From assembly GCA_004565275.1 (NCBI GenBank), contig SDOX01000019.1:11136-75135 (forward strand): a stretch of DNA of 64,000 nt, read 5' to 3'. Origin of the DNA: Nannochloropsis salina CCMP1776 (lineage: Eukaryota > Sar > Eustigmatophyceae > Eustigmatales > Monodopsidaceae). The notes beneath the pieces are model-generated. The model was not told the origin of the DNA. It saw only the letters and a list, made by a program, of their open reading frames with translations, and did not search any database. Of this stretch, positions 7,594 to 37,766 are shown one piece after another; the stretch's first letter is position 1, and each line of letters starts with the position of its first letter. Both the position numbers and the translations under genes were made by a program.

Positions 7594-10500
7594 ATGAAAC
7601 CAACGATTGAAGAACCTCATAATCATCCCGCTCCACCAACTGGGGCCTCTGTTGGAATGGACGCTTCAACAATATCATCGTCATCTCCTTCCTCCTTTTT
7701 GGTGTCCTCCACTGCGTCCTCTGCGTCGTCCACATCCTCGCCATCTTCATCCTCACCGTTGGAGCTCTCGCTTGAGTTTCCGACGCTCTTGGACAACATG
7801 GATGTCATGTTCCAACGTGCGCATGACGGCGCAAAGACATGTAAGGCGTTCTCCACATTCTTGCAACAAAGCGCCGTTCTGGAGGAGGGATATGGAAGCT
7901 CAATTGTCAAGGTAGGCACTATGACTCAATCGAAATGCGCCAACTAGGTGCAAAAAACGAAATGGAAGGCAAAGGAAGCGGGAAAATATGACAGGAACAT
8001 TGAATAATCCTTGGCATACCAAGTATGTTATTCACTCCCGGCTTCGCTTCGCGCTTATGTCCCGCTATCCATATATCTGTCAAGATTTTCACTCCCTCTT
8101 TATCCCTTATTCGCTTTTACTTGTCCTTGGCTCTCCCTATCCTCAGGTCGGGGAGGCTTTCGCGGGCATTCAAGAATCCAATGCCCCGTCAGTGGTGGCG
8201 GCAACCGCAGGAGCCAGTGCGTCCATTCAAGCCCTCGGTCGGCAGCATGTGGGTCTGGCCAACACACTCTCTCAAGACGTCTGCAAAAGCTTGGGTGCCT
8301 ACGTGGATCAGCAGTCTGCGATGCTTCGAGGGATGATCCAGGAAGTGCACGCCCTGGTGGAGGATCTGGAGAAAGAAAAAGCGGCCCATAAAAAGATCCG
8401 AGACAAGCACAAAAAAGCTTGCAAGGAGGCTGAAGGCGTCTTGAAAAAAGGAGGGGCCTTGCCTTTGCCCCCGGTGCCTCCCCCTTCGTCGCAACTCCCG
8501 GACGCGATCGATGTCGCGGTCGCGGCCCCTCCTTCGCTCCCTCCCTCCCTCCCTCCCTCCCTCCCTCCCTCGACCGCGGCGGACCCAATCAGTGGCCCCG
8601 ACCACAGCGACGCCACGTCCTCTCCCATCCCTCCTTCTGCCCCGCCCTCGGTCCCAGCCGTGTCGAGCTCCGTGTTGCGCCTCCAGGATCGGGCGCAGGA
8701 GGCTTTGTTCGATTTGCGCGCCATGGAAAAGGAGTACCAGACCTCCAAGAACAGGATGGAAGGGAAAGAGGGGGCCTTTCGTCGCGCCTTGCAAGAGCAT
8801 TTGGGCCGCTTCCAGGTGGGAATAAGCAGGAACAAAGGAGGGAGGGGAGAAGGGCGGGAGAAAAGTGAGAAGGAAAGACGTGAGAGACCGAGCTAGCCTT
8901 CTGTAGAGAAATCGTTGCCGCTGTAACCGCGATGCCCCTCCCTCCCTCCGTTCCTCCTCCCCTTCTTCCCCCTCTACCAGGTTCAGGAGGAAGCCCGCGC
9001 TCTTTTCGTCAAACAGCAATTGCAGCGGGTAGGGGCTGCCCGAGGGGCCATGCTCACCCTGTTTGAAAAGACCCTGCACGCCCTCCAGGAACAGATCGAC
9101 GCCATCGACCCCGCCGCCGACATGGCGGCTCACTCGCGGCAGGTTTTGGCCCTTTCCCCCCCCTCCGCTATCCCCGTCCCGCCCTCGGTCCTGGAGCTGG
9201 AGGAGGATGGGGCATTGGCGTTGAAACGTCGCGTGGCTCCCGGGGTGCAGCACGTGGAAAAATGCATCAAAAATTTGCGGGCCTTGTGCCAGGCGTTTTC
9301 TGCCTTGGCTGCCGCGGAAGAGGTACGTCTTTCTGCCTCCTGGTGGAATCCTGAGGGTGGCAGGCCCCTTTCTATTTTCCCCGCAATTTCCTCGTTTCTT
9401 TTCTCGGTTTTGTGGGCCCCTGCGACTCTGGGATCCCCCCCGGCCCTCCCTCTCGGAAAGCGGCTGGATCATTCTTCCTACCCAGCACTGACTCCCTCTC
9501 CCCTTCCCCTTTCTCCCCTTCTTCCCCTCTTTCCCTCTTTCCCTCTTTCCCTCCCTAACTCTCTCCCTCCCTCAAGAGCTACGCCAAAGCCACCCTGAAA
9601 CTCGTGAAGAAATCCGGGTATTCCCTCCTCCCTCCCTCTTCCCTTCCTTCCCACTACGGCGCCTGCCGTCGAAGCCTCCAGAAAGAGGGCCCCAGCCTCC
9701 AGGCTGGCTGGCACCAATACATGCGGGGAATGGATGCGGTGGCAAACGCTCACCTTCTCGCCGCGTCCCGCATCTCGCAGTCCGTCTGCGTCACCCTCGC
9801 GCAGACTCAGGACGAACTTGCTGGAGCCCGCCAGGAGATTTTGGTCACCCAAGCCGCCTCCCACAAGGCGTTGGCTGTCACCCGCACCGCCTACCTGAAA
9901 GCGAAGGGAAAGCAGGAAGGGAAAGCGAAGGAGTTGAAAGAAGCTTGGGCGAAGGCGGGCGGGTTAGGGATGGACTTGGAGAACCGAGAATCCGAGCAGG
10001 GAGGGAGGGAGGGAGGGAGGGAGGGAGGGGGGGAAGGCGAGGCGGGGGTACCGAAGGGGAAGGGGCTCTCCCGTCCATCTTGTCATTTGCGAAACCACCA
10101 GGGAAGGAGAAACAGCGGTGGGAGCAGAAACTAACGCACCTGAGGGACGAGCACGCGGCCTTGCAAGCAGCCTTCGAGGAGGCCAAAGATGCATTCACGC
10201 GGCAGCTAGCCTGCTTGGCGCGCCAGGTCCAAATTGTCCTGGAAGCGTTGTCGACGCGGGAGGAAGAGCGGGTGGGCCGGTGGAAGCTGGCCTTGGAGGG
10301 TTTTCACCACGCGGAAAGCGCGCTGTGGGAGAGCACACGGCGGGAGGAAAAGGCGACCCAGGAGACGGTGGATGGCATCGACGTGGGGGGAGATTTGAAG
10401 GAACTGGTCGGGCGAGAGCTGAAGGGACGGACGCAGGAAGGGAGGGATGGAGGGAGGGAGGGCGGGAGGATGGGACAGACGTGGTACGGACAAGACTTGG

Positions 10501-13500
10501 CCGAGCGCCTGGCGGCATTGGTGGGGACGGGAGCGGCGCAGGAAAACGATGGCAGGAACGCTCGCCGGAGCTCTTTTTTACCGCTCACCTCTTTCGTCCT
10601 ACCTGTCTCGATCTGCACCGCGTCCTCCCCCGCGCCCTCCTCCACGCCCTCCCTCACGCCCACCCTCCCTCCCTCCTCCACGGAGCCCTGCCAGCCACGT
10701 CCGAGCGACGTCGAGACGGACCAGGCGGCCTTCCCTTCCTCCCTCCCTCCTCCCTCCCCCTCTTTCTCCGCCCAATCCTCTCCCCTTTCCCCCTCCCAAA
10801 AAGAGGGAGAGAATCGGCTTTCTGCCTACTTCTCCTGCCGCTACCCACACGGCCTTTCACCTTCCTCCCTCCCTCCCTCCCTCCCATCTTCCCTAATGGC
10901 AAGGGAAGCCCTAGAGGAGGGCAGGGAGGAGGACGAGGTAGAGGGGGGGGCAGGGGGGGAGGTCGGGAAGGCAAGCAACGGGCGCCTTGAAGGGCCAAAT
11001 AGGCGCTCGAGGACAAGATCGGGACACTGCATCGACACCGGCTTGAGCCCGATGAGAAGCACGGCGTCGATAGACAGGGACCGAGAAAGGGCGAATTCCA
11101 CCGAGTCTACCTGCTGCGTCCCTCCCTCCACCCCTCTCCTCTTGAGCTCCTGTCTGGAAAGCTCTTCGATGGAAGCAGCCCTGGATTCGGACGAGGACAG
11201 GGTGGAGGAAGGGGAGGGAGGATGGGAGGCTGGAAGAGACAACACGGAGGAAGAGGAGGAGGAGGAAGAGGAGGGGTGGGAGGGAGAGCTGTCTTCGGAG
11301 GAAGAGGAAGGCATGGAAGTAAAACGGGGCAACGGGCGACGCAGACGACATCGAGCGCGGCGACGCTCGAATGGAAGGGGGGGAAGCAGGGAGAGAGGGA
11401 GGGAGGGAGGGAGCCCGGTTCCCCTATACACGACCACCCGCTTGCCTCAGTCCATGTCGCCGCGTCCCGTGGGAGAGGATTCGGCTTTCTCTCCCAGAGC
11501 CGGACTTTCTTGGCAGGTCCACGGAGGCAGCAGCGGCTTGGGAGAGGACGGAGTGTGTTTCCCTTTGCCCGACCGGTGGGAGGGAGGGAAAGAGGAAGGG
11601 GAAGAGGGGAGGGAGGAGGAGTTCCTGATGATGACGACGGCCATGCTCCCTCCCACCCCGTCCGCGGTCTCGGCCGTCGCTGCGGCCTCTCGATTCCTCC
11701 ATCGCCGGGAAGAAATGCAAGAGGGAGGGAGCGAGGGAGGGAGGGAGGGAGGGAGGGGTCTGGACGACACCATGGCCTTGGAGGCAGTCCGGGAGGAGCT
11801 CTCAGTGAAAGCCCTCGTCTCCTCGGCGGGGACCCCTCGAAAAGGGGAGGACTTTCCGGCGGAAGAGGAGGAGCTTTCCACGTTTCTTCCTCCCTCGGGA
11901 CTGAAGGAAGGGGAGGACGAGGGAGGGGGAGAGGACGCGGGGGAGGCAGTCCGGGAGGGAGGGGAGGAGGAAGGGAAGGAGGAAGATCTTTCGAGTGTGG
12001 AAGAAATTAAACCTTTCAACCTCCCTGCCGGCGAACGACTCCTCAAGTCCTATTCCTGCGCGCTTTTGCCCAACAATTTGCTGATCCACGGGCGGCTGTA
12101 CGTGACGCCGCATTATTTATGTTTTGGGTCATGGGGAAGCACCCGGATCGTCTTGGCCATGCGCGAAGTCTCCTTCATCGAAAAGGTACGTCATTGGAGG
12201 GAGGGAGGGAGAAAGGGAGGGAAAGAAGGAGGGAGGGAGGAAAGTAAATGGGGTAGTCGCCCATGTCAGGGTCCAACTTCCTCCCCCCTCCGCTTCCAGA
12301 GCCCGCGAAATTTCCCGCACCATATTCCTCACTCCCTCCCTCCCTCCTTTTTTCCCCCCCTTCGTGCAGGCCAACACAATGGGTTTCGTGCCCAACGCCC
12401 TGTGGGTAGTTATGCGGGAAACGGGCGACCGTTACTTCTTCTCCTCTTTCATTTACCGGGACGACTGCTTCGACACGATCTTCTCTCTCCTCACCAAACG
12501 CCTGGTGGGATTGGAAGCGCCCCTGGGTGGGACGCCGGCCGCCTTGCTCGAGCACGGAAAGAAGAAGAAAAAGAAGAAAATGGCGCGAATGACGCCCAGC
12601 CTCGGAAAGAACGTCAGATGGGGGCCGGAGGTGAGGCACGAGGGGGTGGACGCGGGCAGGCGCGAACAAGAGGGTGCAAGGGAGGGAGGCGAGGAGGCGA
12701 CTACCAAGAAGGTCAAACCTGTGCTCAGCACCCTGGCTACGCAAGAGAAAAATGCAGACTCTCTCCTTTCCATTCCTGACGGGGATGGCGCCTGTGCGGT
12801 AAAACCGCCACCGGCAATGGCAGCCGTCGCTATTTCTCGGCAACCGTTACCACCGCTTACGCTTGAAGATGACGCCATTATCCAACGGATGACGATCTTG
12901 ACGGACGAGGAACTGGCATGCGGCGTGTCGAAATTTTTAGCCAGTTTTTGGGGGGCAGGGAGGGAGGGGGGCAGGGAGGGAGGGAGGGAGGGAGGGAGGG
13001 GGGATTTCTACCAGAGCTACCTGGAGGCCCGCGGGGACAACGAAGTGCGGGTCGGAGGGTGGGAAGGGAGGGAAGAACAGGATGCGTACAGCGGGGAGAG
13101 TTTCGTGCACGTTCGGGACGTGTTTTACAGCCGCGTCCGCGACGGACGAGGGATTGGCCCCAAGACGGTGCCTACCCGGGAATGCCAGATGTATCGGGTG
13201 GAGGGGGAGGGCGGGGGCGATGGTGGGGGGGAAGGACGGGAGGAGGATCGCGTCTTTTTAAGCACCGCGTTGACTTTCACGGGGGTGCCGTATGGGGAGT
13301 ATTTTCACGTACAGACGCGGTGGGTGGTGACGCGGGTTGGCGTGCACGGCGACCGCTGCCGTTTGCAAATCGGTGTGGAGGTAGTCTTTCGGCAAACAGT
13401 GTTTTTGAAGGCGGCGATCCAGGCGGCGACCATCGCCGAGACGAAAAAAACGTTGCAAGATTGGTTGGCACGTGCCAAGGCCCGTGTGCAGGAGATGAAA

Positions 13501-13977
13501 GGCGAGGCCACCAGGGACGCCAAATTAATGCGGGGTGGAAAGGGTGGGAAGGAAGGAGAAAGCGAAGGCGGGAAGGAGGATGGAGGGAAAGAAATTGAAC
13601 GTACGCTGGCAGAGCGGAAAGCCACGGGGGCGGGGGAGGTGGAATCAGCTTTATTGGAGGATCAGCGTGGAGAAGAGGAGACGATGAGGCCGTCTCCTCG
13701 GCAACACACGCCGCGGGAGGAGGAGGAGGAGGAGGGGAGAAAACCGAGTCTAGAACATGGCAGTTGTCAGTCCTGTTTCTTCTGCCGCCTGGCACCATCT
13801 CTGACCTTCAAGGGACTGCCCGCGCTTCTCTTCCTTGTCCTCCTCGTTGTCCTTCTGCTCCTCTTGGTGGCCCTTGTCCTCCTCATTTTCCAGGTCCAAC
13901 GCCTGAGCAATCGACTCGAGAGCCTCCAGGATGCTGTTAGTGCCATGCTGACGGCTTCGCATGCGCAGCCAGTGTGA
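7594..13977 (+). CDS. Tandem F-BAR / GRAM / VASt protein with C-terminal membrane helix (LAM/Aster-like lipid transfer protein)
   Basis: Supported exons: 7594-7911, 8147-8815, 8981-9322, 9577 to about 9960, about 10100-12185 and about 12370-13977, giving some 1,800 residues. The first F-BAR-like helix bundle runs from LLDNMDVMFQRAHDGAK and VLEEGYGSSIVK through KIRDKHKKACKEAE to about 9130. A second begins at 9235 with VEKCIKNLRALCQAF and EESYAKATLKLVKKSG and continues to about 10380. A long low-complexity acidic and Gly/Arg-rich linker follows. The GRAM domain (about 12010-12500) has NNLLIHGRLYVTPHYLCF and is split by an intron. The VASt domain (about 13000-13500) contains RVFLSTALTF-like and HVQTRWVVTR strands. 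One hydrophobic helix (13815-13895) sits near the C terminus. Yeast Lam and animal GRAMD1/Aster proteins with GRAM-VASt-TM sit in the ER at contact sites and move sterols. That role is inferred here. Confidence 0.82.
8539..8571. repeat. Exonic (CCCT)n array encoding a PSLP peptide repeat
   Basis: The array lies inside an exon of the F-BAR/GRAM/VASt gene and is read as a Pro-Ser-Leu-Pro repeat in the loop between helices of the first F-BAR-like domain. It contains neither GT nor AG, so it cannot itself be cut by splicing. Confidence 0.85.
12960..13003. repeat. Exonic (GGGA)n array encoding a GREG peptide repeat
   Basis: The array is translated as Gly-Arg-Glu-Gly repeats between the start of the VASt region (FLASFWG) and its DFYQSYLEARG segment. 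No GT donor lies within or just beside it, so it looks exonic. Confidence 0.8.
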
Positions 13978-14854: not shown

Positions 14855-17800
14855 CTATATCCCGCTCTCTCCCACGTCCGACGGTCGAATTCGGGTGGGA
14901 GAATTGGCAGCGCTGGTGCTCCGACTTCCGCTCCCATCCATCCAATGCTCCAGCTCTCCTTCAAAGACTTTGTTGATGCTCTGTGTCATGCCCGTCAACA
15001 GTCCCTCGATCGCTTCCGGCAATCCCCTTTCCTCCTTTTCAGCCTCCACTCTTCCCTCCGCCCCCCCTTCTTTTCCGCCCTCAATTTTGACCACATCTGT
15101 AGAAGTGTGGAAAAGCAGCCCCAACAAATCACGGAGCTGCTGCAGAAGCGTCAAGATACGCTGCCGCACAGGTCGAAACAAAATGGCTTTGGTGTTGTTG
15201 TTATGATCCAGATAAAGTGACAGAAGGTGGGATAGTGCTGGCAGGGCAGTAAGCAAACCCTCGTGAGCTTCCAAGAGAGTCGCCTCCAGGCGTGCGGGTT
15301 GAAGAAAGGCTTGTACGGAGAGGGTTTGAAGGGTGGTGGGGTCGATGAAGGGTAGAGAGGAGGAAGGAGGGGAGGGATTGGAGGAGGACGTGGGTAAGAA
15401 AGCACGGGCTTTCTGTAAAAGGGTGGCGATCGGCTCGGCAAGGTGGCTGGTTGCGTGGAGTATGAAAGCATTGCATGCGCTCTTGAGGGAGGCCTCTAGC
15501 TCCTTCCTGGTATCCACCTGAGGGGGCGACACAGGAGGAGAGAGAGGAAGGGGGGAAGGGGATAAGGCACGGCGTTGATAATTTGTCCGCGAAGCGAGAC
15601 CGCAATCAGGGATGCCAAAATTTCGCCGCTGTTTCAAGGCCATATCCCTCCCCACGACATCCAGGCAGCCCTCAAAAGCTGCTGCATTACCTCTTCCTCA
15701 TTGACGGTGGGTACCGAGCCCAAGGCGAGGGAAAGGAGGGCATTGTCCGTACCAATGCGGAAGAGGTTGTGCCTGTCCACAAAGAAACGGGTCAAGGCAC
15801 CTGAGGGAAGCAGGAGCGACGAAAGGGAGGTAGATGAGTACGAGGAATTGCGTGTATGGGATATTCCTGTCCAATATATATCCCATATATTCCTGGAGTC
15901 GTGGGAAGTCTGCTTCTCCGTCTGTTGCGCCCTTCTCAGCCCACGTCTCCCCAATCCTCATTCCCCTTGCCCCGCCCTCCCTTCCCCCTTCCTTCCATGG
16001 CCCCTGTTTTTTGTTTCATCATTACCTCGCGTGGAATTGAAATCAAGCCTCTTTTCAATGGCCGCAAACTCGATGTCAAAGGGCACCAGCTGCTCTCGGA
16101 GGACGAGGAGGTGCTTGACCTTTTGAGAGCGGGCGAAGGGGAAGGGAAGGGAAAGAGTCACAAGAGCACTTCGACCCCATTCGCATGCGGCGGGGCAAGG
16201 ACGGCAATGCAGTCCAAACCGACAGCGTCGACAGCAATGAATGATACAGCAGCACTCGTGCAGTCTCTCCCGTCCCAGAGAGACACCCCAAAGGGGCCAT
16301 CCCCACGCCCTCCGAGCAGGGAGGACCCACCGCGCCAAGGCACGTACCAGGGAACAAATCGGCGTCCATATCCCCCTTCTGCTCCCGCAAGACCTTTGCG
16401 GCGGCCAAAAACGAATAAGTACAAGCGGCCAATGCCTGTGAGCGGTAACATTTTGGGTGGTGTGCGATCCGCGTCAGGGTGCTTGGCAAAGGGAATATCA
16501 TGCCCGACAGTGGCCTTGCGCCGGGCGAGCCCCCTGTGACTTGCCGTCAATTCACTGCCCTCCCACGCAAAAGGGCCACAATCTCCCCTCTTTTCCCCCT
16601 CCTTCCTACCTGCTGGGCCATTTCTTGGAAGACATGGATCTCCACCGCCCGATAAATTTTGCTCAAGAGGGAGAGAGTCATCTGCAGCGTTGGGAACCAC
16701 GTTGCGTACACTGGCAGGACCTCGCCCATGCTGTAGCAGAAGGGAGGGTGGGATGGAGGGGGGGATGGAGGGATGAGAGGAGGATAGTGTTGACCTTGCC
16801 CCCTTGATAAGATGGAAAGACAGCTCTCTTCCCTTTCAACTCCGTAATTTCACCCTCTCCCTCGTCCATCTCGCCCTCCCTTGTGCCTTTTTTGCTTTCT
16901 GAACTCCTTTCTGGTTGTATTCCGCCTTTCCCTCCCTCCCTCCCTCCCTCCCTCCCTCCCTCCCTCCCTCCCTCCCTCCCTCCCTCCCTCCCTCCCTCCC
17001 TCCCTCCCTCCCTCAACTAACCCGCCGCTCGACAGGGCCTCCATCCCTTCCTCCGCCTCAGCCCCTCCTTTCCCTTCCTTCCCTGCGGTCCCTTCCTCCT
17101 CCCCTTCCTCTTTCCCTTCCTGGCTTCCACCCTCCTGTCCCCTCCGCTTGGCTTCCCAGTAGGCTTCCAGCTTCCCGGGGTACTCCAAATCCGCCGGGGT
17201 AGGCCGGAAGCCCTCCACCTCCACCCTCAGGACCTGAACAGGGAGGGAAGAGCGTCAGGCAACAAGACAAGGAAGCAAAAGATCTGCAGCAACTTCGTTT
17301 AATCCACTCTACCATTCCCTCTCTCCCTGTCGTCCCTCCTTCCTTTGGGCCTCTCTTTCGGACTGGCGCCCTACCCGCTCCGCCACGTAGATGAGCCGTT
17401 CTTGGGCGTCCTCCGCGATACGTTCCAGCACATCGCGTAAGGGGGAAAGGTTCATGTCATCTGAGAGGGACAAAGGGGGAGCGTGAAGACCAAGGAAAAG
17501 ATGTGTGTGAGCAAGGAGAGGAGGGGGAAAACACGGCACTTGGAAAGCAATCAAGATGTGCAGGGAGAACCACACACACGCAGAGGAGAATGCACAGCTC
17601 AAGCGGGGAATGTGGAAGGGACTTTCAGGAACAGGAACCAAGTCCAGACGAAAAACCTGAAGCCAAAATGCGTGATACATGGTGACTGAGCGCCAATACG
17701 CCGGGTTTCGTCCATCGAATTGCCCATCTTCAATCTATTCCTTCCTTTCTCCCTTCCTCCCTCCCTCCCTCCCTCTCTTTACCTCGCAAGGGCATTTGAC

Positions 17801-22237: not shown

Positions 22238-24427
22238 GTGATGATGAGAGCTGGCCAAGCGGTCGGAACCCTCACAAAGCAAGCATGGCAAACAACAAGA
22301 GGCACTTCACTCAAGATGACGGTCTCTTTAGCCTTTATTCCTGCATTCAATATCCATGTGGGGGCTTTCTCTCGCGTGAGGTACTCGAGTCGTCCTATAA
22401 AAGTAGGTGACAGTTTTGACATCCTACAGGGAACGTACCTTTCTCAAAGAGTAATCAATACTTGCTAAGTCTGCTTCTTTCCACGTAATGCGCACTTTTT
22501 TCGTCCGACATGATTTGTAGGCTGGTTTCTCTACCTACGAAGGTCTTGATCCGGACAGAGCCAAAGATGTGCTCAAAAAGGCGCAGGTGAGTGCACGGAT
22601 AACGAAGCGATGGATGAGGGGGCGAATGCAAGTAGGGGGTAGGCTGTGTATGATCTCATTTTATCCCCTTTTTCATTTTCTTTTCCTGGAACGTAGGCAG
22701 TTTGTTTCGACGTAGACTCCACCGTCTGTGCAGAAGAGGGCATCGACGTCCTCGCGGCATTCCTCGGGCAGGGGCAGGCGGTAGCGGATTTGACCGCGAA
22801 GTAGGGAGAGGGAAAGCAGGGAGACCAGGACGTTCCCTTGTGATATATACTGCAGCCATTCTATTTTTCTTATGGCATTTCGGAACGTCGAAAATTGGAG
22901 GTCCTTCCTCGCTCGATCCTCACGGTTCCCTCTCCCCTCTCCCTTCTTTTCTCTCTCTTCCCCTCCCACTCCCCCACGTCTGTCCCCCACCTAAGGGCCA
23001 TGGGCGGCTCCGTGCTATTCCAAGACGCGTTGAAAGGCCGCTTGGACTTGATCAAACCCTCACGCGCCGACATTCAGAACTGTCTGCTTCGACGCCCGGC
23101 GACCCTCTCCCCAGGGTGAGCCTCCCCCCTGCTCTCCCCTCCTCCCTCCCCTCCCTTTTCAGCCGTCACTCCTCCTTCCCTCCCTCCTACTAGAGTAAAG
23201 GAATTTGTTGGTCGTCTTCAAGCGCGGGGCACAGCGGTCTATTTGGTCTCGGGCGGCTTTCGACTGGTGCGTTAGGGAGGAGGGAGGGAGGGAGGGAGAG
23301 AGAGAAAGGGAGGGATGTGGGGAGGGAGGAACGGGCGGGAGGGAGGTAGCGAGGGAGGGAAGGTCCTCGCATCAATTACGCGTCTTCAGATTATTCTTAT
23401 TTGTCCTTTTCCCTCCCCGCACTCGTTGACCGAGCGCCTGTCTCACGCTCCTCAATCATATGTCCTCCTGTTCCTCCCTCCCTCCCTCCCTCCCTCCCTC
23501 CCTCCTCCCCCCCACCCATCGCCCCTCTTTCAGATGATCGAGCCCGTTGCTGACCGGCTCCTGGTGCCCCGGGACCGCATATACGCCAACACCCTCCTCT
23601 TCGCAGAGAATGGTAGCTACAAGGACTTCGACCCCAACGAGCCTACCTCACGTAAGGAGGGAGGGAGGGAGGGGCGGCAAGGGGAAGTAGGAAAGATGTG
23701 AGAGGGAAAGGGGTCGAGACGAGGGAGATTCCATCCGGGGGTACACTTAGTCCTGAACTGTAAGGAACTTGCCAGAATGATAATTGCCTCGCCATCTTGT
23801 CCGGGCATTCGAATACTCCCAAATCGCTCCTTCCCTCCCGTACGTCGTCGATCCCTCCCTTCCCACCCACGCATACCCCTCCTTCCTCCTCCTCCTCCCA
23901 CCTCTGCATGTGTAGGCGACGGTGGCAAAGCGGCCGTGGTCAAATCCCTGAAGGAGAAGCACGGCTACCAAGATGTCCTTATGGTGGGCGATGGGGCCAC
24001 TGATATGCAGGTAGGGAGGGAGGAAGCAAGGGCAGGAGAGAGGAAGGGTGGGAGGAGGAGGTAACGGAGGCTCAAAAAGAGGCCCAGCCTGTCGTCCTTG
24101 TTGTAATTGGCGCTTCGCGACATGGAATTGATGCGGTGCCTGTCGTGATGGACTTCTAAGATCCCTTCCTCCTGACCTCGTTCTTCTTTCCCTCCGAATC
24201 CGGCGCCTGGCAGGCCCGACCCCCCGCGGACGCCTTCATTGGGTATGGCGGGGTGGTGGTCCGAGACCCGGTCTTGCAAGGCGCCGATTGGTTCGTGCGT
24301 TCTTTTCAGGTTAGCAGAATGGAAGGGAAGGCAAGGAGGGTGGTTTTCAGATTGCTTTATTGTACGGCAGGATGGTTCATGCGACCTCTGGCCTCCACAG
24401 GAACTGATCGACGTCATCGAGGCTTGA
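22238..24427 (+). CDS. PSPH: Phosphoserine phosphatase
   Basis: Catalyses the last step of serine synthesis from 3-phosphoglycerate: phosphoserine to serine plus phosphate. Nine exons splice in frame: 22238-22402, 22521-22586, 22697-22800, 22996-23115, 23194-23266, 23534-23651, 23916-24010, 24214-24309 and 24401-24427, giving 287 residues. HAD motifs are all present: FDVDSTVC with the two catalytic Asp (motif I), the PSP block KAMGGSVLFQDALKGRLDLI, YLVSGGF (motif II), GGKAAVVKSLKEK with the motif III Lys, and VGDGATDM (motif IV). About 55 residues precede the conserved AGFSTYEGLDPDRAK start. Beginning at the internal Met at 22316, this leader resembles a heterokont signal-plus-transit peptide ending in VGAF followed by a basic Ser/Arg stretch, so plastid import is plausible but unproven. 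Confidence 0.93.
23474..23506. repeat. (CCCT)n array before an acceptor in the phosphatase gene
   Basis: Lies in the intron 23267-23533, which begins G-rich (gtgcgttagggagg, then GGGA units to about 23360) and ends with this CCCT array before ttcag. It is the clearest example of complementary repeats at the two ends of one intron. Confidence 0.92.
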
Positions 24428-29124: not shown

Positions 29125-32100
29125 ATGCCATCCTACTGTTCTTTCGACTTCAGCCTGCCGTCTTTTCTTTGCTCGTCGGAGTTCAGGCGTCTGCACTTTA
29201 GTGTTCAGGGTTCCTCCTCGCCCATTTCGACCTCCTCCGAGAGCTGGGAGCTCCGGCAAAAGCAAGAGCGACAGCGTCGACAGGAGTGGCAGGAGCGGGA
29301 AGAACGAGCCCTACGGAAAGATAAAGAGGAAGGGGACGACGGCAGCAAGACCTTTTTATTTTTAAAAGGTCGGAATAAAGAGTAAGGCGAACAGAACCAG
29401 ACGCAGTGAGCAACTACATCGACTTCTAGCGACGTCGAGAAAACAAATTAAAAACATGATCCGATCAAAGACATTTTTCAAACGAACAAGACGGGGCAAG
29501 GTATATTAAAGCATCATCATATTTGGGGCTGTTCGTGAAATTTATGTTTTTTTTGGAAAACTCTGATGCCTCTTAATTATTTTTCTTTTCCCCCCTCTTC
29601 TCTCTCCCTCTGTCGACTCCTCGAAAGGTCATGCGCATTCTGGAGGAACACTATCTACGTGATGATATCGGTCTGGGCACGCTTCATGGTTCCGAATGCT
29701 CTGCTTTGACGCCCGAAGAGCTCGTTCAGCTCATGGAGGGACGGATGGAGGGAGGGCTGAAGGAAGGGGAAGAGGGAGGGCAGGAGGGAGGGGTCAAGAA
29801 AAAGACGCCTACCTTATCCATCCTGGACACTAACGTGGCATTGGAGCAGATTGATTTCTTGGAAAACGCGGAGGTAGGTCAGCCAGGTGGGGAGGAGGAA
29901 GGAGAAGGATGGGGCCCGCAAAGGCGAGGGAGAAAGAGACAGAACCGCCCACGATGGAAATTCATGCGTGATGGGCACCTACAGGCCTCAGAAGCAGTCC
30001 TAGGGGTCGTAGTTCTTCTACAGACCGTGCTGGAGGAAGTCAAGGGGAACAGCCTGTCCGTGTACCGGTGAGCCCTCCTTCCCTCCCTCTTTCCCGTCTT
30101 CGGCTCCTCCCTGCCTCCCATCCCTCTCTTTCCTCCAAGCTTGTGCTTTCTATCGCTCCGCTTCGCACACGATGTCAATTCAATCTAATCTGCATATCGC
30201 TGGAAGAAGAAAAACTTACGTCGCTCTTTCTTTCCCTCCTTCTCTCGGCTTGCCCTTTCCCTTCTTTCCCCGCTGGGGTCAAGGCGCCTTCACAAACTCC
30301 TCCTTGATGACAGTCGGGCCATTGTTTTTTTTGCCAATGAGCACGCGGCCGAGGCCTACAGGTAAGGGAGGGGAAGGTGGGGGACGTGGAGAGGGAGGGA
30401 GGGAGGAAAGAGGGGAGGAAGAGGAGGGAGGAGGGAGGGCCGGAGGACAGGGGAGGTAGTGAGGCAAACGGGAGGAAGGGAGATAAGAGTGGAGGAAGAG
30501 AGGGGAAAAGTGAGGGAGGGAGGGAGGAAGGGAGAGAGTGTAATTTTCGGGTCGGAGGGGACTCCATGCCGCGGAATACGACGCTTTTCCCTCTCTTTTC
30601 CTCAAAGCGCTTTCTCTGCCTGGGCTTTCTGGTCCATTGGTTTTCCCTCCCTCCCTCCCTCCCTCCCTCCCTCTTTTCCTTCCTTCCTCAGCGACCGCCT
30701 CCCCGAGGAGACGGTGAACGACTACAAGGACCGTCTGATCCGCCTAGCTGGTGCCTTCTACACGCGACAGTTGGGGGAGGAAGCAGGGAGGAATGGAGGG
30801 AGGGAGGGAGGGAGGGAGGGAGGGAGGATCGTCTTGGTCTCCTACGACAAGGAAAATCTGCGAAAAGCCAAGGAGGAGGACGTTGAGGTACCTTCTCGTC
30901 CGTTTCGCACTACTNNNNNNNNNNNNNNNNNNNNNNNNNNNNNNNNNNNNNNNNNNNNNNNNNNNNNNNNNNNNNNNNNNNNNNNNNNNNNNNNNNNNNN
31001 NNNNNNNNNNNNNNCCCTCCCTCCCTCCCTCCCTCCTTCTCTTCCTCCCTTTCTCGTTGCCATTCCTCCTTCTCTCTCTCTCTTTTGCTTCTCCCTCTCC
31101 CCACCCCTCCTTCTTGCACAACCGCCTCCTCCCTCCTCTCCCTCCCATCGTTCACCGGCCTCACTCCGTCGCCCATCCTCCCGCCCTTCCTCCCTCCCTT
31201 CCTCCTTCCCGCCCTCTCCTACAGGGGACTTTCCGGGTGGAGGGACGCTGCTGGCACGAGGGTTACGTGTCCGTGCGGGGAATTGGGCTGGGAAGAGGAG
31301 GGGCTGAGGGAGAGAGGGAGGGGGGGAAAGACGGGAGTGGACGCGCGTCGGTCCTGGTAAGTGGCGGGCGGATGGCTGAGAAAGAGGGAGCGGCACGGGT
31401 ATCCCTCCCTCTCTTACTCCGTCCCTGTTTTCCCTTGACCTCCATGCCCTGTGTGCCCTGTCTTCTTCCGCCTCGCATGAATCGGATCGGAGTCGAATCT
31501 CAGAGATTCCGATTTTCGAATCTCAGCGGAGCCGAATCTCTCTTTCCATTCTTCCTTCGTGCCCGCACCTGACTTCTTTCTCCCCGTCCTCCCTCCCTCC
31601 CTCCCTACTTCCCTCCCTCCCTCGCTCGGGACGGATATTTTTTCCCCCTTTTGGACCGTTGTCAGGTCCGCGGCATCCCACACGTGAATCGGGCCTTGGA
31701 TGGGGACGTGGTGGCGCTGGAAATACTGCCCAAAGACGAGTGGTTGACAGGACAGGAAGAGGTGGGGCCGAGGGAGGGAGGGAGGGAGGGAGGGAGGGAG
31801 GGAGGGAGGGAAAAGGAGGGAGGGAGGGAGGGAGGGAGGGAAAAGGAGGGAGGGAAGGAGAGGGAGGAAGGAGAGAGGGTGCGGAGTGTTGCTTTCTCTT
31901 CCCTCTATTCGCATCGCTCCTTTGGGCTCGCCCTGTCCTTCCTTTACATATTCCTTGCATACTCCTTAACATCTTCCTCGCATTTTCTTGCTCTTCTTTC
32001 TCTCCTGCCACTTCCCTCAGACGACGCTGTTGGAAGACGAGGAGGCAGGACAGGCGTCGAGGGAGGGGGAGGTCCAGGGGGAGGGCGGGGGCGGGGAAGA

Positions 32101-35100
32101 CGACATGCCTGTCAACTACGAAAACCTCATACCTGCGCCGGTGCTTGACACCCCTGCCTCTATCTCGCCCCCAACCTCCTCTTTGTCGGCGCGTCGAAAG
32201 CCGACGGGGAGGGTGGTGGGGGTCATCAAGAGGTAGGGTGCTCGCCCTGCGCCCTTTCCTCCCCTTCCTCTACCTCTCCTTCCCTCCCATCCTCCATCCC
32301 TTTCCATAAAAAAATCGTCTTCCTCTCTGTGGAAGGTCGACAGTCATCGTCCTCCCTCCCTCCTTCCCTCCCTCCCTCCCTCCTTTCCTCCCTGTAGGAA
32401 CTGGCGAGCGTACTGTGGGTCCTTGCAAGCCAGCGCGGACCGCGTTGGGGGGGGAGGTAGCACCGTCTCTGCCCTCTTTGTCCCGGTCGACAGGCGGCTA
32501 CCGAAGGTGAGTATCCTTTCCCCCCCCCCTCCCCCCCTCTCTATCGGTTCCTCGTCCACTCCACCCCCTCCTCCTTCTTCCCCCCCCCTTCCCCTTCCAT
32601 TCTTCTTCCATTCGGGCGCGCGCACTCATTCTGTACAAGTCATCCCATTTACCTTTCTGCCTCTCTTTCCCTACCTATCTCCCTCCCTCCCTCCCTCCCT
32701 TCCTATCCATCAGATCCGGATCCAGACGCGCCAGCGGGATGTCCTGCAGGACAAGCGCATTCTTGTCGCCGTGGACGGTGGGCGCGATTTTCTTTTCCCT
32801 TTCCTTGTCCTCGTTCCACCCTTCTTTCCTTCTTCCTTCCCGTGCTCCGATGCTCTCACTCTTCGGGAATGACGCTCATCCCTCCCTGCTCCTCCCCTTC
32901 GGGTCCTCCTCCCCCTCTTCCTCCCTTCCTTTCCCCAGCCTGGCCGGCAGACTCGCGATATCCCGCCGGTCATTACATCAAAACGCTAGGGTCTGCGGGG
33001 GATAAGGAGGTGGAGACGGAGGTAAGGGGGGGAGACGGCGGGAGGGGGAGGGACATGGCGAGGAAGGGCAGCGAAAAGAGGGTTTGGAAGCCACCGTGTG
33101 AATCCTTGAATTGCAGAGAACTTTTAGGTGGAGAAAATCCAAGGGTTTGGCAGCTTATCTTCTTCCTTGGTTCGCCCAGGTGCTTTTGCACGAGTACGAC
33201 ATCCCCTGGGAGCCTTTTTCAGAAAAGGTGGGTTCTTTCCCCTCCTTTCTTCCTCCCTCCTTCCCTTCCTCCTTCCCTCCTTCCCTTCCTCCTTCATTCC
33301 TTCCTTTTTTTCTTCCTTCATTTCTTCCTCTGTCAACCTCTGTTTTCTCTATTTTGTATCCTTTCTTCCTCTTTAAGCCTCTTCATATAGATGGTTTTCC
33401 CCACCCTCTTCCTCGGTTTTTCTTGAGAAAAAATGCATATCTATATATTCAAGTATACCCTCCCTCCCCTTGGCAGGTGATGGCTTGCCTCCCTCCCTCC
33501 GATTGGAGCATGACACCTGAGAATACCAAAGGGAGGGTCGACCTCCGGAAGATTTCTGTCATGAGCATCGATCCACCGGTAAGGAGGGAGGAAGGGGTAG
33601 AGCGAGGGACAGAACGATGGGGCAGACGGTATAATCCGTTGGCCACTGGGGGAAGCGGAGGAACGGGAGTAGGACAGGGGGAGGGGGGAGACGGGAAGAA
33701 AGGCTGTAAAAGAGCTTTAGGGAAAGACGGACGATCTCAAGCAAGGGGAAGCCGCCCTAAACGCTGGGCGCTGGAGCCAAGCCTTCCAATCGCAAGGAGG
33801 GCAGCAGGTCTTCCCCGTCTTGGAGGGGGAGTGGCTTGCTCGGCCAGCGGCATAAAGGCAAAGGGTACGAGGACAAGTCTGAGTACCGTCCAATTCACGC
33901 GTGTGCCCACTGCATGTACCCGTCCACAGGGATGCAAGGACATCGACGACGCTCTCCATTGCACGCCCTTGCCCAATGGCAATTTCGGTCCGTGCCTTCC
34001 AATTTTCCTTTCTCTCTTACCCACCCTCTTGCCATACCTTGTATTCTTTTATCCTGCTTTTCCTCCCATTATTTTCCTCCTCGATTATAGGCTGCTCCTC
34101 CCAAGCGAATAGCTCACTCACTCACCCTGCCCCCGCTTCCCCTTCCCTTTGTCTCCCTCCGCTCAGCGGTCGGGGTCCACATCGCCGACGTTTCCTACTT
34201 TGTCCAGCCAGGGAGTGCGTTGGACGAGGAGGCCGCAAACCGCTCGACGAGGCAAGGAAGGGAGGGAGGGAGGGAGGGAGGGAGGGAAGGAGGAGAAGGC
34301 GGGAGGACGTGGATGTCGAGGGTGGCGTGACTCTGATTCTCCAAATGTTTCCTCCCTCCGGGCTCTCCCCTTTCTTCTCCCTTGTGCAGCACGTACCTGG
34401 TTCAAAGACGCTTGGACATGCTGCCCAAACTCCTGACTGAGACGCTGTGCTCTTTGACAAGTACCTCCGATCATTTTGCCTTCAGGTGGGAGGGAGAGGG
34501 AAGGGAGGGCGTAAGGGGGGAAAGGAGGCGGCCAGCCTGGAGCGTGGCTGGCATGATCCTGTGCACTACGTTTGTGTATGGAAAAAGCCTTACTGAGGCT
34601 TATCCACAGATTCGTAACTGTATTTTTTCACTGCCATTCCTCCCCTTGTCCCACCTAGTGTCCTCTGGGAGCTGACTCCAAACGCAGACATCGTCTCTGT
34701 AGAATTCTGCAAAAGCATCATTCGGTCCGTCGCGTCGCTGTCGTATCAAGAAGCCCAGAACATCCACGACGATCCCCATGCCCAGGATGCTGTTGCACAG
34801 GTAGGTGGAAAAGAAGGGAACGCAGGCGGAGATGGAGGGTCGATCAGAATGTGCTGGTTTTGGCGGTCGGTGGATGGAGGGGTCTGGGATGCCCAAGGAA
34901 GCACGCGAATGTAGTGCTGACTTTACGGAGACCGCTCCTCAGACTCAAGCAACTCTCTACATCGATGGGGCTTAAGAGGTCTGACCGCTATCCATGAATA
35001 CGCTGTGGTCGAAAAGGAGGACGAGAAATCTTGCGGCTCACCGCAGAAGCCATGTCCTTTGTCCTCACATTCTTTCAGGGTATTAGAGGGTTGAACAGTC

Positions 35101-37766
35101 TGGCTAAAAAGCTTCGAGCGAAAAGGATGGAGGCAGGGGCGCTCATGTTAGCCTCCACAGAAGTGAAGTTTGTCTTGGATGCGGATAGCTCCGATCCGTT
35201 GGATGTACAGGTAGGGCAAGGTTGGTTGCAGGCGAGTGGGTTGTGGAGAGGCGATTGCGGTTTATTATCGTGGACACTCGCTCCGTGCCGAATCCTCGAA
35301 GGCTGGGGTGGGTGATAGTGTTCCTGGCAGATCCTCCTGGTGCAGATATACCTGGTTTGGGATTACTGAGAAGTCTGTATGCTGTAGTTCGTGGGCTACG
35401 TCTTGCCGACGGACCATTCCCTCGGATGTAGTGACTGAAAGTGGTTTTTGGAATTTTTGGAAGGCCTTTTTCTGTTCATTTCTGTTTTGGGGAAGTTTTT
35501 TTTTCCCGAATACCGATATGTTCCGAGTATTTCTACCGTGTCGAGCAGGAGAAAGGCATTGAACCTCACCCTCTCCAAATTTTTCTCGCTCATTCTTCCC
35601 TCCCTCTCTGCTCCCATTATTGCGTCCCCAGATGTACCAGCTTAAAGAGACGCATGCACTCGTGGAAGAATTCATGCTTTTGGCTAACATCACGGTCGGG
35701 AAGAAAATTCTTCGGCATTATCCTACATTGAGGTGATCTCCCCTCATCCCTCACTCCCATTATCGATCCTGTGTTTCAAGCTCTGTCTCTTGCACACTTA
35801 AGCGGTTTTCCCATTGATTTGATTCACGACCTTTAGATGCTGTGTCGTCAGTTTTTTTTCTTCCTCCTCCCTTGTCCTCCTCTCTGCTCATCTACCTCCT
35901 CCCCTCCCTTCCTCTCTCCCTCCCGCAGCCTGCTCCGCCGGCATCCGTCCCCCTCCCGAGAACGTTTCGAGTCCCTCATTGCTGCCGCGGCGTCTCGAGG
36001 CTTCTCGCTCTGTGTTGATGACAGCAGTGCACTCCAGCAATCGCTGGACGCATCCGTGGACAAGGACGACCCGAACATCAACAAAATCATCCGCATTCTC
36101 GCCACCCGGTGCGTGGGAAGCCTCTTTGCTTTTCCCTCCGTCCTCACTATTCGTGGCGTGGCTTGTCATGTTGGTGCCCTTTCTGACCTACTTGTTTCAC
36201 GTACACGTGTTGTGTTTCCAATGACGTCGCCTGTTCTCATGGAGACAGTAAGGCTCCCAAACGGCCGTTCTCCAAATGCTCTCTTTGCTTTCCCCTTCTA
36301 ATCCCATTCCGTCCCTACTGCCCGTTGCAGGTGCATGTTTCCTGCCCAATACTTCTGCTCAGGCGAGTGCTCACAAGATGAATGGCACCACTATGGCCTC
36401 GCCGCACCGATCTACACACATTTCACAAGTCCCATTCGCCGGTAATGGGTTTGGGAAGAGGAAATTGAACATCGAGAAGGGGGGATATTTTTGCGTAACC
36501 ATAAAGAGATGCTCCATCCTTTGCAAAATTTGTTTCCTTGCAGACGCTAAGTCGGTCAAGCGATGTTCTTGTATCCTCTCAGTAACCGGAGAGTATCGGA
36601 AGGCATTTCTCATTTATGCTCTCCCCCCCCGTTGCCTCTCCCATCCTCTTCCATCCTCCCTCCTTATCCTTTCCTCCTCGCCCTCGCAGCTATGCGGACA
36701 TTGTGGTCCATCGTCTCTTGGCGGCCTCAATTGGAGTTGCACCGTTGCCAGAGGCCCTTCTGGATAAGGGGGGAATGCATGACCTCGCTGAGAACATGAA
36801 TCGCAGGCACAAGGCGGCACAGGTGGGTTAGAGGGGGAGGGAGAGGGAGGGAAAGAGGGATAGGCATTCAATCGGACGTCGATTAGGCACAAAATGTCGA
36901 AAGGCAGGGAAAGTTGAAAACCGTCAAAGAGGAGTGTGGATTGAAAGAAAAGAGGGAAAGGGATTGTTTTCGTATTGTTGCCTTGATTCCACCTTGTTTG
37001 TCTCCCCCCCCGCTTCTCAACCCTCCATTAGAACGCAGGACGTGGCTCAACGGCGTTTCACACGGTCCTGTTTTTCAAAGAGAATCCCGTCGAGGCGGAA
37101 GACGCGTATATTCTGCGCATCTTGGAGACACGGTTGATTGTGCTGGTGCCTCGCTTTGGGATCGAGGTAGGGAGAGGGAGAGGGGAGGATGTCGAGAGGG
37201 ATAGAGAAGGGACAATTCGCCCCATGCACGTATCATAAGGGGTTCGACAAGCCGGAAGCGCTGTCGTGGTTCGAGCTGCACACCTGCAATCACATTGGTC
37301 CCCTTCCACTTCCCTCCTCTCCTTTCTCCCTTTTTGTCTTCCTCTCTTTCTCTGACTTGCCCCCGCCTATCCCCCACGTGCAGGGTACAATTGATCTGAA
37401 GGGGCTGGCCGACCAAGGCTTGTTAAATCGACATGCGGACGGGCATCGAATCACGTGTCCAGGTATACCCAAGTCTGTTTCCCTCTCCACCCCTTTCTGT
37501 ATTTTTCAGGATACAAGCACATCCTAGCATTTATATCGTCGCCACCTCCCGCTTTGATTTTTACAGGGAAAGTTGAGCTCAAGGTGTTCGACAAAATCCG
37601 TGTAGGTATCCGTGTGGCGGAAGGGAAAGCTGCACACCGTGACGCGGTGGTTTATACGCTGCAGTCTCCTCGCATCCCAGGCCTAGACGTGGAAAGAGAA
37701 GAAGGGGCAAGAAATGTGGAGGGAGGAGGGAAAAAGAGGAAAAGTGCGGATGCCAAGAAAAAATAA
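29125..37766 (+). CDS. DIS3: Exosome 3'-5' exoribonuclease / PIN endonuclease DIS3 (RRP44)
   Basis: DIS3 is the catalytic subunit of the eukaryotic RNA exosome. About 24 exons are recognisable. Order: N-terminal [12 protein letters not shown] and [12 protein letters not shown] (29345-29700); PIN domain with [14 protein letters not shown] (about 29825-29873), [17 protein letters not shown] (29985-30067), [16 protein letters not shown] (30284-30361) and [18 protein letters not shown] (ending 30887); then an assembly gap. Cold-shock domains follow: [16 protein letters not shown] (31226), [20 protein letters not shown] (31666), [19 protein letters not shown] (32200-32420) and [13 protein letters not shown]. 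The RNB catalytic domain has [16 protein letters not shown] (33930-33975) with the metal-binding Asp cluster, [32 protein letters not shown] (36400) and [15 protein letters not shown]. The S1 end finishes [10 protein letters not shown]. One intron (34252-34389) uses a GC donor. The start at 29125 and the splice 29381/29628 are uncertain. Confidence 0.93.
30796..30828. repeat. Exonic (GGGA)n array in the DIS3 PIN domain
   Basis: Lies inside exon 30692-30887 and is read as a GREG repeat between [14 protein letters not shown] and [12 protein letters not shown]. No GT occurs across the array, so it should be translated. In human DIS3 the same place is a surface loop before a core strand. Confidence 0.82.
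30915..31014. other. Assembly gap (100 N) inside DIS3
   Basis: Exactly 100 N, a conventional placeholder for a gap of unknown length. It follows the last PIN-domain exon and abuts a CCCT array on the right. Part of the protein between the PIN domain and the first cold-shock domain, present in other DIS3 proteins, is not visible and probably lies in the missing sequence. Confidence 0.97.
31771..31863. repeat. Composite GGGA array with AAAAGGA interruptions
   Basis: Begins about ten bases after a GT donor in DIS3. Blocks of GGGA units are separated twice by the same AAAAGGA interruption, which suggests duplication of a block larger than the basic unit. Confidence 0.9.

Follow-up and report, generated by a model that had tools for sequence, protein, structure and literature searches.

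The window analysed here, a 64,000-nucleotide stretch deposited as Nannochloropsis salina CCMP1776 (contig SDOX01000019.1, positions 11,136 to 75,135), contains genes for phosphoserine phosphatase, DIS3 (identified by RRP44 matches), COG3 (identified by its Pfam domains) and a putative F-BAR protein, a label taken over from the initial annotation, and our subject is the tetranucleotide repeat (GGGA)n.(TCCC)n carried by introns of these genes. In the phosphatase intron at 23267..23533, on the plus strand, the donor side is occupied by GGGA and the acceptor side by CCCT: the intron starts with GTGCGTTAGGGAGGAGGGAGGG and ends with a CCCT array followed by ...CTTTCAG. Tandem Repeats Finder delineates an AGGG array after the donor (23274..23360, 21.2 copies, 70% match) and a CCTC array before the acceptor (23473..23517, 11.5 copies, 90% match), both on the plus strand, and the words GGGA and TCCC divide 13 to 0 in the 5' half of the intron and 0 to 10 in its 3' half. 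The intron was delimited by spliced alignment; with it and its neighbours spliced out, the phosphatase protein aligns without gaps to 1l8l over 215 residues.

The initial annotation had pointed to the same polarity in four further introns, and its coordinates as well as the GGGA-then-CCCT arrangement proved correct in all five: the 5' halves hold 4-22 GGGA and no TCCC, and TCCC outnumbers GGGA in each of the 3' halves. Two of the four lie on the plus strand in the putative F-BAR gene, at 12186..12369 (GGGA/TCCC 7/0 in the 5' half and 0/6 in the 3' half; found with six settings of a gene-finding hidden Markov model, HMM) and at 8816..8980 (4/0 and 0/4; from the gene finder, with the acceptor at 8980 or 8986 depending on the HMM setting). 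The third, at 30362..30691 on the plus strand of DIS3/RRP44 (16/0 and 2/8), was recovered both by spliced alignment to human RRP44 and with the six HMM settings, and the fourth, on the minus strand at 16731..17021 in COG3 (22/0 and 2/4; all six HMM settings), has its donor at 17021, followed by a long GGGA array, and a C-rich acceptor side. All five cited introns thus belong to one class, GGGA followed by CCCT.

Beyond these examples, introns were inferred by two routes in a genome of 26.5 Mb in 103 contigs, which in size, GC content (55.4% in the window) and intron length (predicted median, 207 nt) is similar to that of Nannochloropsis oceanica as given in passages of PMC3499364 (28.7 Mb, 53.8% GC, mean intron 230 bp, 8.7% simple or low-complexity sequence). 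The first route was the HMM, run on the window, on the pieces C1:100001-200000 and C2:100001-200000 and on two 20-kb mid-contig samples; its non-coding background was order-4 and strand-symmetric, so that the intron model itself could hold no preference for GGGA over TCCC, and its coding part was not symmetric. The first settings were rejected for over-prediction, with 1787-1887 introns in the second and later iterations, others for poor splice consensus or because GGGA stretches were apparently read as coding, and an intermediate model gave 143 introns. The six settings produced 531 distinct introns, only 71 of them common to all, which makes HMM boundaries uncertain. The set used throughout comprises 204 introns of 70-700 nt (64 from the window, 66 from the C2 piece, 49 from the C1 piece and 25 from the mid-contig pieces), alongside stricter sets of 115, 66 and 54 introns; the 66-intron set, made up of introns found by all six settings, may be biased in its turn: GGGA is favoured by the coding model, which would make donors followed by GGGA unstable between settings.

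The second route was protein-to-genome spliced alignment, with PDB relatives of PSPH, DIS3, PGK, SEC23, DapF, prohibitin, ubiquitin-conjugating E2 and RRP46 as queries and an aligner whose sole splice-site requirement is GT and AG and which gives G, AG and YAG a small tie-breaking advantage at the junctions. It gave 34 introns, to which two phosphatase introns were added by eye; six of these 36, where the alignment was poor (29878-30003 and 31762-32071 of the window, one in prohibitin and three in SEC23), were excluded after their ends had already been inspected, and 30 were kept. The aligner returned zero introns for RRP46 and for the last DIS3 piece, and a putative ATP11-like protein had no PDB match. 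Against the 30 homology introns, the chosen HMM setting recovered 18 exactly, with 24 donors and 18 acceptors. A GGGA-majority acceptor side occurs in 40 of the 204 HMM introns and in 1 of the 30 homology introns, which suggests that many HMM boundaries are wrong.

Both sets display the polarity. Within 60 nt after the donor, the 204 HMM introns hold 312 GGGA and 148 TCCC words (majorities in 86 vs 44 introns, 74 ties; sign test p = 3e-4), and within 60 nt before the acceptor 89 and 356 (40 vs 105 introns, 59 ties; p = 6e-8). At the acceptors, the homology introns have a single GGGA to 96 TCCC, and the 66-intron set 20 to 155; at the donors of the homology set, GGG exceeds CCC in 21 introns and CCC exceeds GGG in 8 (p = 0.024). 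When all 36 homology introns are counted, the donor split is 21 vs 10 for GGGA against TCCC (p = 0.071) and 27 vs 8 for GGG against CCC (p = 0.0019), and the acceptor split for GGGA against TCCC is 3 vs 23 (p = 9e-5). Predicted intergenic DNA (81.6 kb) has GGGA at 4.2 and TCCC at 5.4 per kb; TCCC leads GGGA by 15.4 to 11.2 per kb already in mid-intron and by 33.7 to 7.9 at the acceptor. The two words keep apart, at least two GGGA together with at least two TCCC being found within the same 60 nt at 1 donor (9.6 expected) and at 0 acceptors (5.5 expected) among the 204 introns. Genome-wide, GGGAGG has 311 placements at 4-34 nt after CAGGTRAG and CCTCCC has 50, with 109 placements of GGGAGG before CAGGTRAG, counts in which overlapping placements let tandem arrays enter several times and some CAGGTRAG sites may not be donors; two-unit arrays before TNCAGG number 942 for TCCC and 521 for GGGA.

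The strength of the polarity varies between regions. Both the window and the C2 piece show a strong polarity; in the array-poor C1 piece it is weaker (GGGA vs TCCC, 13.1 vs 4.7 per kb at donors and 6.8 vs 12.6 at acceptors). It is also weaker, and still present, in the 96 introns that lack two-unit arrays (GGG vs CCC, 25.6 vs 10.9 per kb at the donor and 12.0 vs 30.9 at the acceptor), which suggests that G-runs followed by pyrimidines are a general tendency, one that is amplified by the microsatellite. A CCCT majority at both ends was found in 31 of 204 HMM introns and 9 of 30 homology introns; together with the introns that have GGGA-majority acceptors, these make the GGGA-then-CCCT order a tendency and not a rule. 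The positional asymmetry proposed in the initial annotation is supported in the sampled introns. The literature searched yielded no report of a GGGA/CCCT intron pattern, although one may exist, and the passages drawn on from PMC9977717, PMC12702839, PMC5766209 and PMC3499364 do not report it.

Two aspects were least expected: that the repeat is concentrated in introns, and that it switches strand at roughly 100 nt from the acceptor. Of arrays of at least three units, the window has 54, the C2 piece 63 and the C1 piece 7, and predicted introns account for 42, 48 and 5 of them, respectively; predicted exons contain 10, 9 and 2, and predicted intergenic DNA, of comparable or greater extent, 2, 6 and 0. 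For the window and the C2 piece this amounts, within the limits of imperfect gene models and of stretches missing from the C2 piece, to an array density per base more than 10 times as high in introns as in intergenic DNA; the two 20-kb mid-contig samples contain 0 and 2 such arrays. In the homology set, where orientation was counted on the 30 kept introns and not on all 36, the 58 arrays are oriented GA:CT 1:28 within 100 nt of the acceptor and 24:5 further upstream, and, with each intron counted singly, 12 vs 3 upstream (p = 0.035) and, over the last 100 nt, 0 vs 19 plus a single tie. In the 204 HMM introns (286 arrays), orientation is predicted by the distances from both ends, with coefficients of -0.69 [-1.05, -0.30] for the donor and 0.48 [0.13, 0.92] for the acceptor; arrays more than 100 nt from the acceptor stand at GA:CT 56:25 if they lie no further than 60 nt from the donor, and at 40:42 if they lie further away. 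As a separate matter of chromosomal distribution, among the first 100 matches listed for contig 1 (to 963.5 kb of 1073 kb), (GGGA)4 arrays concentrate near the contig ends, forming 36 clusters with a 490-kb gap at 264.6-754.6 kb, a gap of a size that arose in 0 of 20000 uniform simulations.

In this sample, arrays at the two ends of an intron show no association. With stratification by region, arrays occur at both ends of 19 of the 204 HMM introns, compared with 19.4 expected (z = -0.13); the z values for the stricter sets of 115, 66 and 54 introns are 0.73, 0.32 and -0.61, and the homology introns show 7 against 6.8 expected, or 7 against 6.6 when all 36 are included. In the two array-rich regions (130 introns), the odds ratio is 0.92, with a 95% confidence interval of 0.41-2.04 that leaves room for a two-fold pairing effect. 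An earlier unstratified count, made with a looser motif and with array-rich and array-poor regions pooled, had given 37 against 30.4 (p = 0.051) and 31 against 26.2 (p = 0.10). The richness of the 5' end in GGGA and that of the 3' end in CCCT show no significant correlation (rho 0.09 and 0.10).

The reading that we favour, with a probability of roughly 0.55, is that a single microsatellite, (GGGA)n.(TCCC)n, mainly intronic, serves according to its orientation as two independent splicing signals; co-occurrence at chance level points to two separate signals drawn from simple repeats, not to a selected hairpin. Sense GGGA tracts in the 5' part would supply G-runs that help to define the donor or the intron body, acting via a protein of the hnRNP H/F kind, via U1 or via an RNA quadruplex, and CCCT tracts in the last 100 nt would be recognised by the U2AF pathway as a C-rich polypyrimidine tract; the 3' end would be purged of purine tracts, with pyrimidine tracts tolerated near the donor. 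We infer that the G-runs promote splicing, presumably through one of these factors. A bolder version, in which the tetranucleotide is a two-letter code of intron polarity, GGGA denoting the 5' part and CCCT the last 100 nt, with slippage creating or strengthening the splice-site context, is possible but doubtful. If the favoured view is right, ordinary microsatellite slippage would supply splicing signals wholesale, and from the orientation of a simple repeat one could predict its place within the intron; the bolder version would also extend donor-side use of quadruplexes far beyond mammals and birds.

The acceptor half of the pattern needs nothing new, being a C-rich polypyrimidine tract. Between positions -3 and -23 of the homology introns, CC, CT, TC and TT dominate, and AG is at 0, GA at 10, GG at 22 and AA at 5 per kb; from -23 to -103, AG (18-54 per kb) and GA (23-56 per kb) are about equally low, and in the last 20 nt of the HMM introns AG stands at 37 vs 44 per kb for GA. 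The initial annotation had offered as a simple cause that GGGA near an acceptor would create competing AGs, an explanation that can account for the last 20 nt. As the whole cause it was rejected: AG and GA are about equally scarce further upstream, and G-runs free of AG (GGGG, GGGT and GGGC) are also rarer at acceptors than at donors, so that a wider preference for pyrimidines is needed. In Drosophila, polypyrimidine tracts are described in passages of PMC10946897 as under joint selection against AG and for pyrimidines. A large subunit of U2AF is encoded in this genome, in one open frame at C12:223186-224757 (362.6 bits, cut-off 310.3). The acceptor regions share with the U2AF-bound polypyrimidine tract a pyrimidine-rich last 20-100 nt and, in the 30 homology introns, freedom from AG at -3..-23, and differ from it in being C-rich, often as CCCT repeats, instead of U-rich. 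A second match to the U2AF large subunit, at C6:710908-711501, scores 118 bits, below the cut-off, and could be a related splicing factor with RNA recognition motifs.

The 5' half would most simply be an intronic G-run signal. G triplets near donors are intronic splicing enhancers bound by hnRNP H/F, and the introns studied here share with such enhancers sense G-runs in the first tens of nucleotides past the donor and fewer of them before the acceptor; the difference is that the G-runs here are often tandem GGGA tetranucleotides, in a probably algal genome, with a putative effect on splicing. The putative enhancer or quadruplex role suggested in the initial annotation is compatible with the data, and the introns would offer a natural test bed outside vertebrates for effects of donor-side G-runs and quadruplexes. 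The match of the donors to U1 is at most loosely related to G-runs (rho 0.11, p = 0.11, 204 introns), and an Rfam search for U1 gave zero matches, as did its controls.

Several observations weigh against the favoured reading, most of them concerning the 5' half, which is the weaker of the two. At the donors of the 30 homology introns, 57 GGGA stand against 39 TCCC, with majorities in 16 vs 9 introns (p = 0.23); in the 66-intron set, 123 vs 74 words come down to 29 vs 23 introns (p = 0.49), and the 54-intron set has 22 vs 19 (p = 0.76). In the 25 mid-contig introns, the polarity is nearly gone (GGGA vs TCCC, 5.0 vs 2.9 per kb at the donor and 5.6 vs 6.3 at the acceptor), and the genome-wide counts before TTGCAG, 469 vs 502, follow an uninformative pattern. 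The 100-nt cut was picked after the table had been seen, and the upstream per-intron p values at cuts of 60, 80 and 120 nt are 0.14, 0.08 and 0.022. G-runs are not tied to weak donors, their correlation with the donor score being positive (rho 0.18, p = 0.012). Finally, once acceptor distance is allowed for, donor distance has no effect in the homology set (0.42 [-1.05, 4.36]), in which upstream arrays number GA:CT 15:4 over the first 60 nt and 9:1 deeper in the intron; the purine tracts may therefore be a mark of the intron body and not of the donor.

The alternative that best survives these data, though an unlikely one, is that the repeat is neutral and arises in either orientation, with selection confined to the 3' part of the intron, where it favours pyrimidines and disfavours AG and runs of purines; what is left on the 5' side would then be a mixture, purine-rich merely by contrast. 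The acceptor half is indeed the stronger and more reproducible one, as its word counts in the 66-intron and homology sets attest, donors with a CCCT majority are common (9 of 30), only acceptor distance counts in the homology set, and the joint selection described for Drosophila in PMC10946897 provides a known precedent. Purging at the acceptor alone, however, predicts a 1:1 ratio away from it, and the homology arrays there stand at 24:5; the HMM arrays depart from parity near the donors (56:25), albeit not elsewhere (40:42), and GGGAGG is about 6 times as frequent as CCTCCC after CAGGTRAG in raw placements, an excess that could come in part from non-donor sites and multiply counted arrays.

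A role for G-runs at the donor could also take the form of an RNA quadruplex, with the structure formed by the 5' (GGGA)n, and not linear G-runs, as the active element, which we consider improbable. Motifs of four G-runs within 100 nt of the donor number 38 on the sense strand and 20 on the antisense strand in the 204 HMM introns, whereas the acceptors have 7 and 47; the homology introns show 10 vs 5 at donors and 0 vs 9 at acceptors, and the stricter sets show 24 vs 14 (115 introns), 12 vs 11 (66) and 10 vs 7 (54) at donors. From these counts a quadruplex role seems possible, yet four runs occur in a minority of introns, array-free introns still show the G-run polarity, the excess shrinks to 12 vs 11 in the 66-intron set, and sequence cannot separate quadruplexes from linear G-runs. 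There is a human precedent in passages of PMC9065059, quadruplexes of the non-template strand at 5' splice sites, and such motifs near donors may be what the introns studied here have in common with the splice sites of mammals and birds; HNRNPH and quadruplexes are treated in PMC13001508. According to the same passages of PMC9065059, splice-site enrichment of quadruplexes is limited to mammals and birds among the eukaryotes compared there, being minimal or nil in fruit fly, worm and Arabidopsis and replaced by depletion in frog and zebrafish, with yeast left out and no alga among the eleven species. The genome studied here would form a contrast to that restriction that would be worth checking with a real annotation.

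The initial annotation had further proposed that donor-side GGGA could pair with acceptor-side UCCC, looping out the intron and bringing the splice sites together, a design that the sample does not support and that we regard as quite improbable. Long duplexes are predicted where both arrays exist: in the fold of 23267-23533 (minimum free energy -140.6), 64 of 89 pairs join the first and last 40% of the intron, and the corresponding counts are 78 of 111 in 30362-30691 and 60 of 85 in 23652-23915. Of seven introns folded against region-preserving shuffles, three have z below -2.5 but four are ordinary, with z from -0.75 to -0.08; own ends pair marginally better than randomly swapped ones (P = 0.10 for 112 introns, z = -1.3; P = 0.041 for 147, z = -1.7), but the advantage vanishes against ends taken from neighbouring introns on the same strand, at most 8 kb away (p = 0.78 and 0.90). 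TCCC-majority acceptors accompany TCCC donors in 9 of 9 homology introns but GGGA donors in 11 of 16, and, as reported above, the arrays co-occur at chance, so that in this sample, short of the whole genome, there is asymmetry without excess co-occurrence, the outcome that the initial annotation had named as refuting its proposal. The long predicted duplexes, combined with chance co-occurrence, suggest that structure may exist in some introns without having been selected. If this is right, two ideas that are usually argued together come apart, in that complementary intron ends need not signify selected pairing.

For bridging introns with co-occurring complementary repeats, U2AF2-independent splicing serves as a class criterion. 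The closest likeness is to the AC/GT introns of zebrafish, reportedly described by Lin et al. in Genome Res in 2016, in which complementary simple repeats at opposite ends of the intron, foldable into a bridge as they are here, are said to co-occur in the same intron, unlike the chance association found in our sample. That the bias arises from transcription or R-loops, not from splicing, is scarcely credible: the predicted coding sense strand also has more GGGA than TCCC (12.2 vs 6.6 per kb), but the bias reverses along the intron, with TCCC ahead from mid-intron onwards and strongly so at the acceptor. An origin of the introns as an introner family was likewise rejected, on the strength of only 19 dust-filtered cross matches among 238 introns, 16 of them of 20-41 bases and the others of 51, 58 and 64.

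Further introns of the phosphatase and DIS3 genes, all on the plus strand, illustrate the range of arrangements. In the phosphatase gene, the intron at 23652..23915 (spliced alignment and all six HMM settings) has a GGGA array followed by a CCCT array, that at 24011..24213 (spliced alignment and six HMM settings) has a donor GGGA array and no CCCT array, and that at 22801..22995 (spliced alignment) has GGGA words, not amounting to an array, followed by a CCCT array; its apparent acceptor, AAG, is of a type forbidden in the later gene-finder models. Two further introns, both missed by the spliced aligner, lack arrays: 22587..22696, placed by eye from the reading frames, and 24310..24400, also placed by eye, with one GGGA after the donor. 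In DIS3, spliced alignment gives donor GGGA arrays at 33022..33179, with no TCCC over the 60 nt leading up to the acceptor, and at 34486..34658, with no CCCT array. Counter-examples with TCCC at both ends, all from spliced alignment, are the short phosphatase intron at 23116..23193 and the DIS3 introns at 32233..32397 and 32507..32713.

Introns such as 23116-23193 and 32233-32397 make up a second class, pyrimidine-rich at both ends. TCCC-donor introns are shorter than GGGA-donor introns in the homology set (medians 161 vs 218, p = 0.034), but not in the HMM set (200.5 vs 216, p = 0.48). In the predicted exons of the window at 7594-13977 and 29631-37766, GGGA arrays run without a stop in any frame, some of them in frame as Glu-Gly-Gly-Arg repeats, with TCCC read as Pro-Pro-Ser-Leu, and some of these array-bearing exons may be unrecognised introns.

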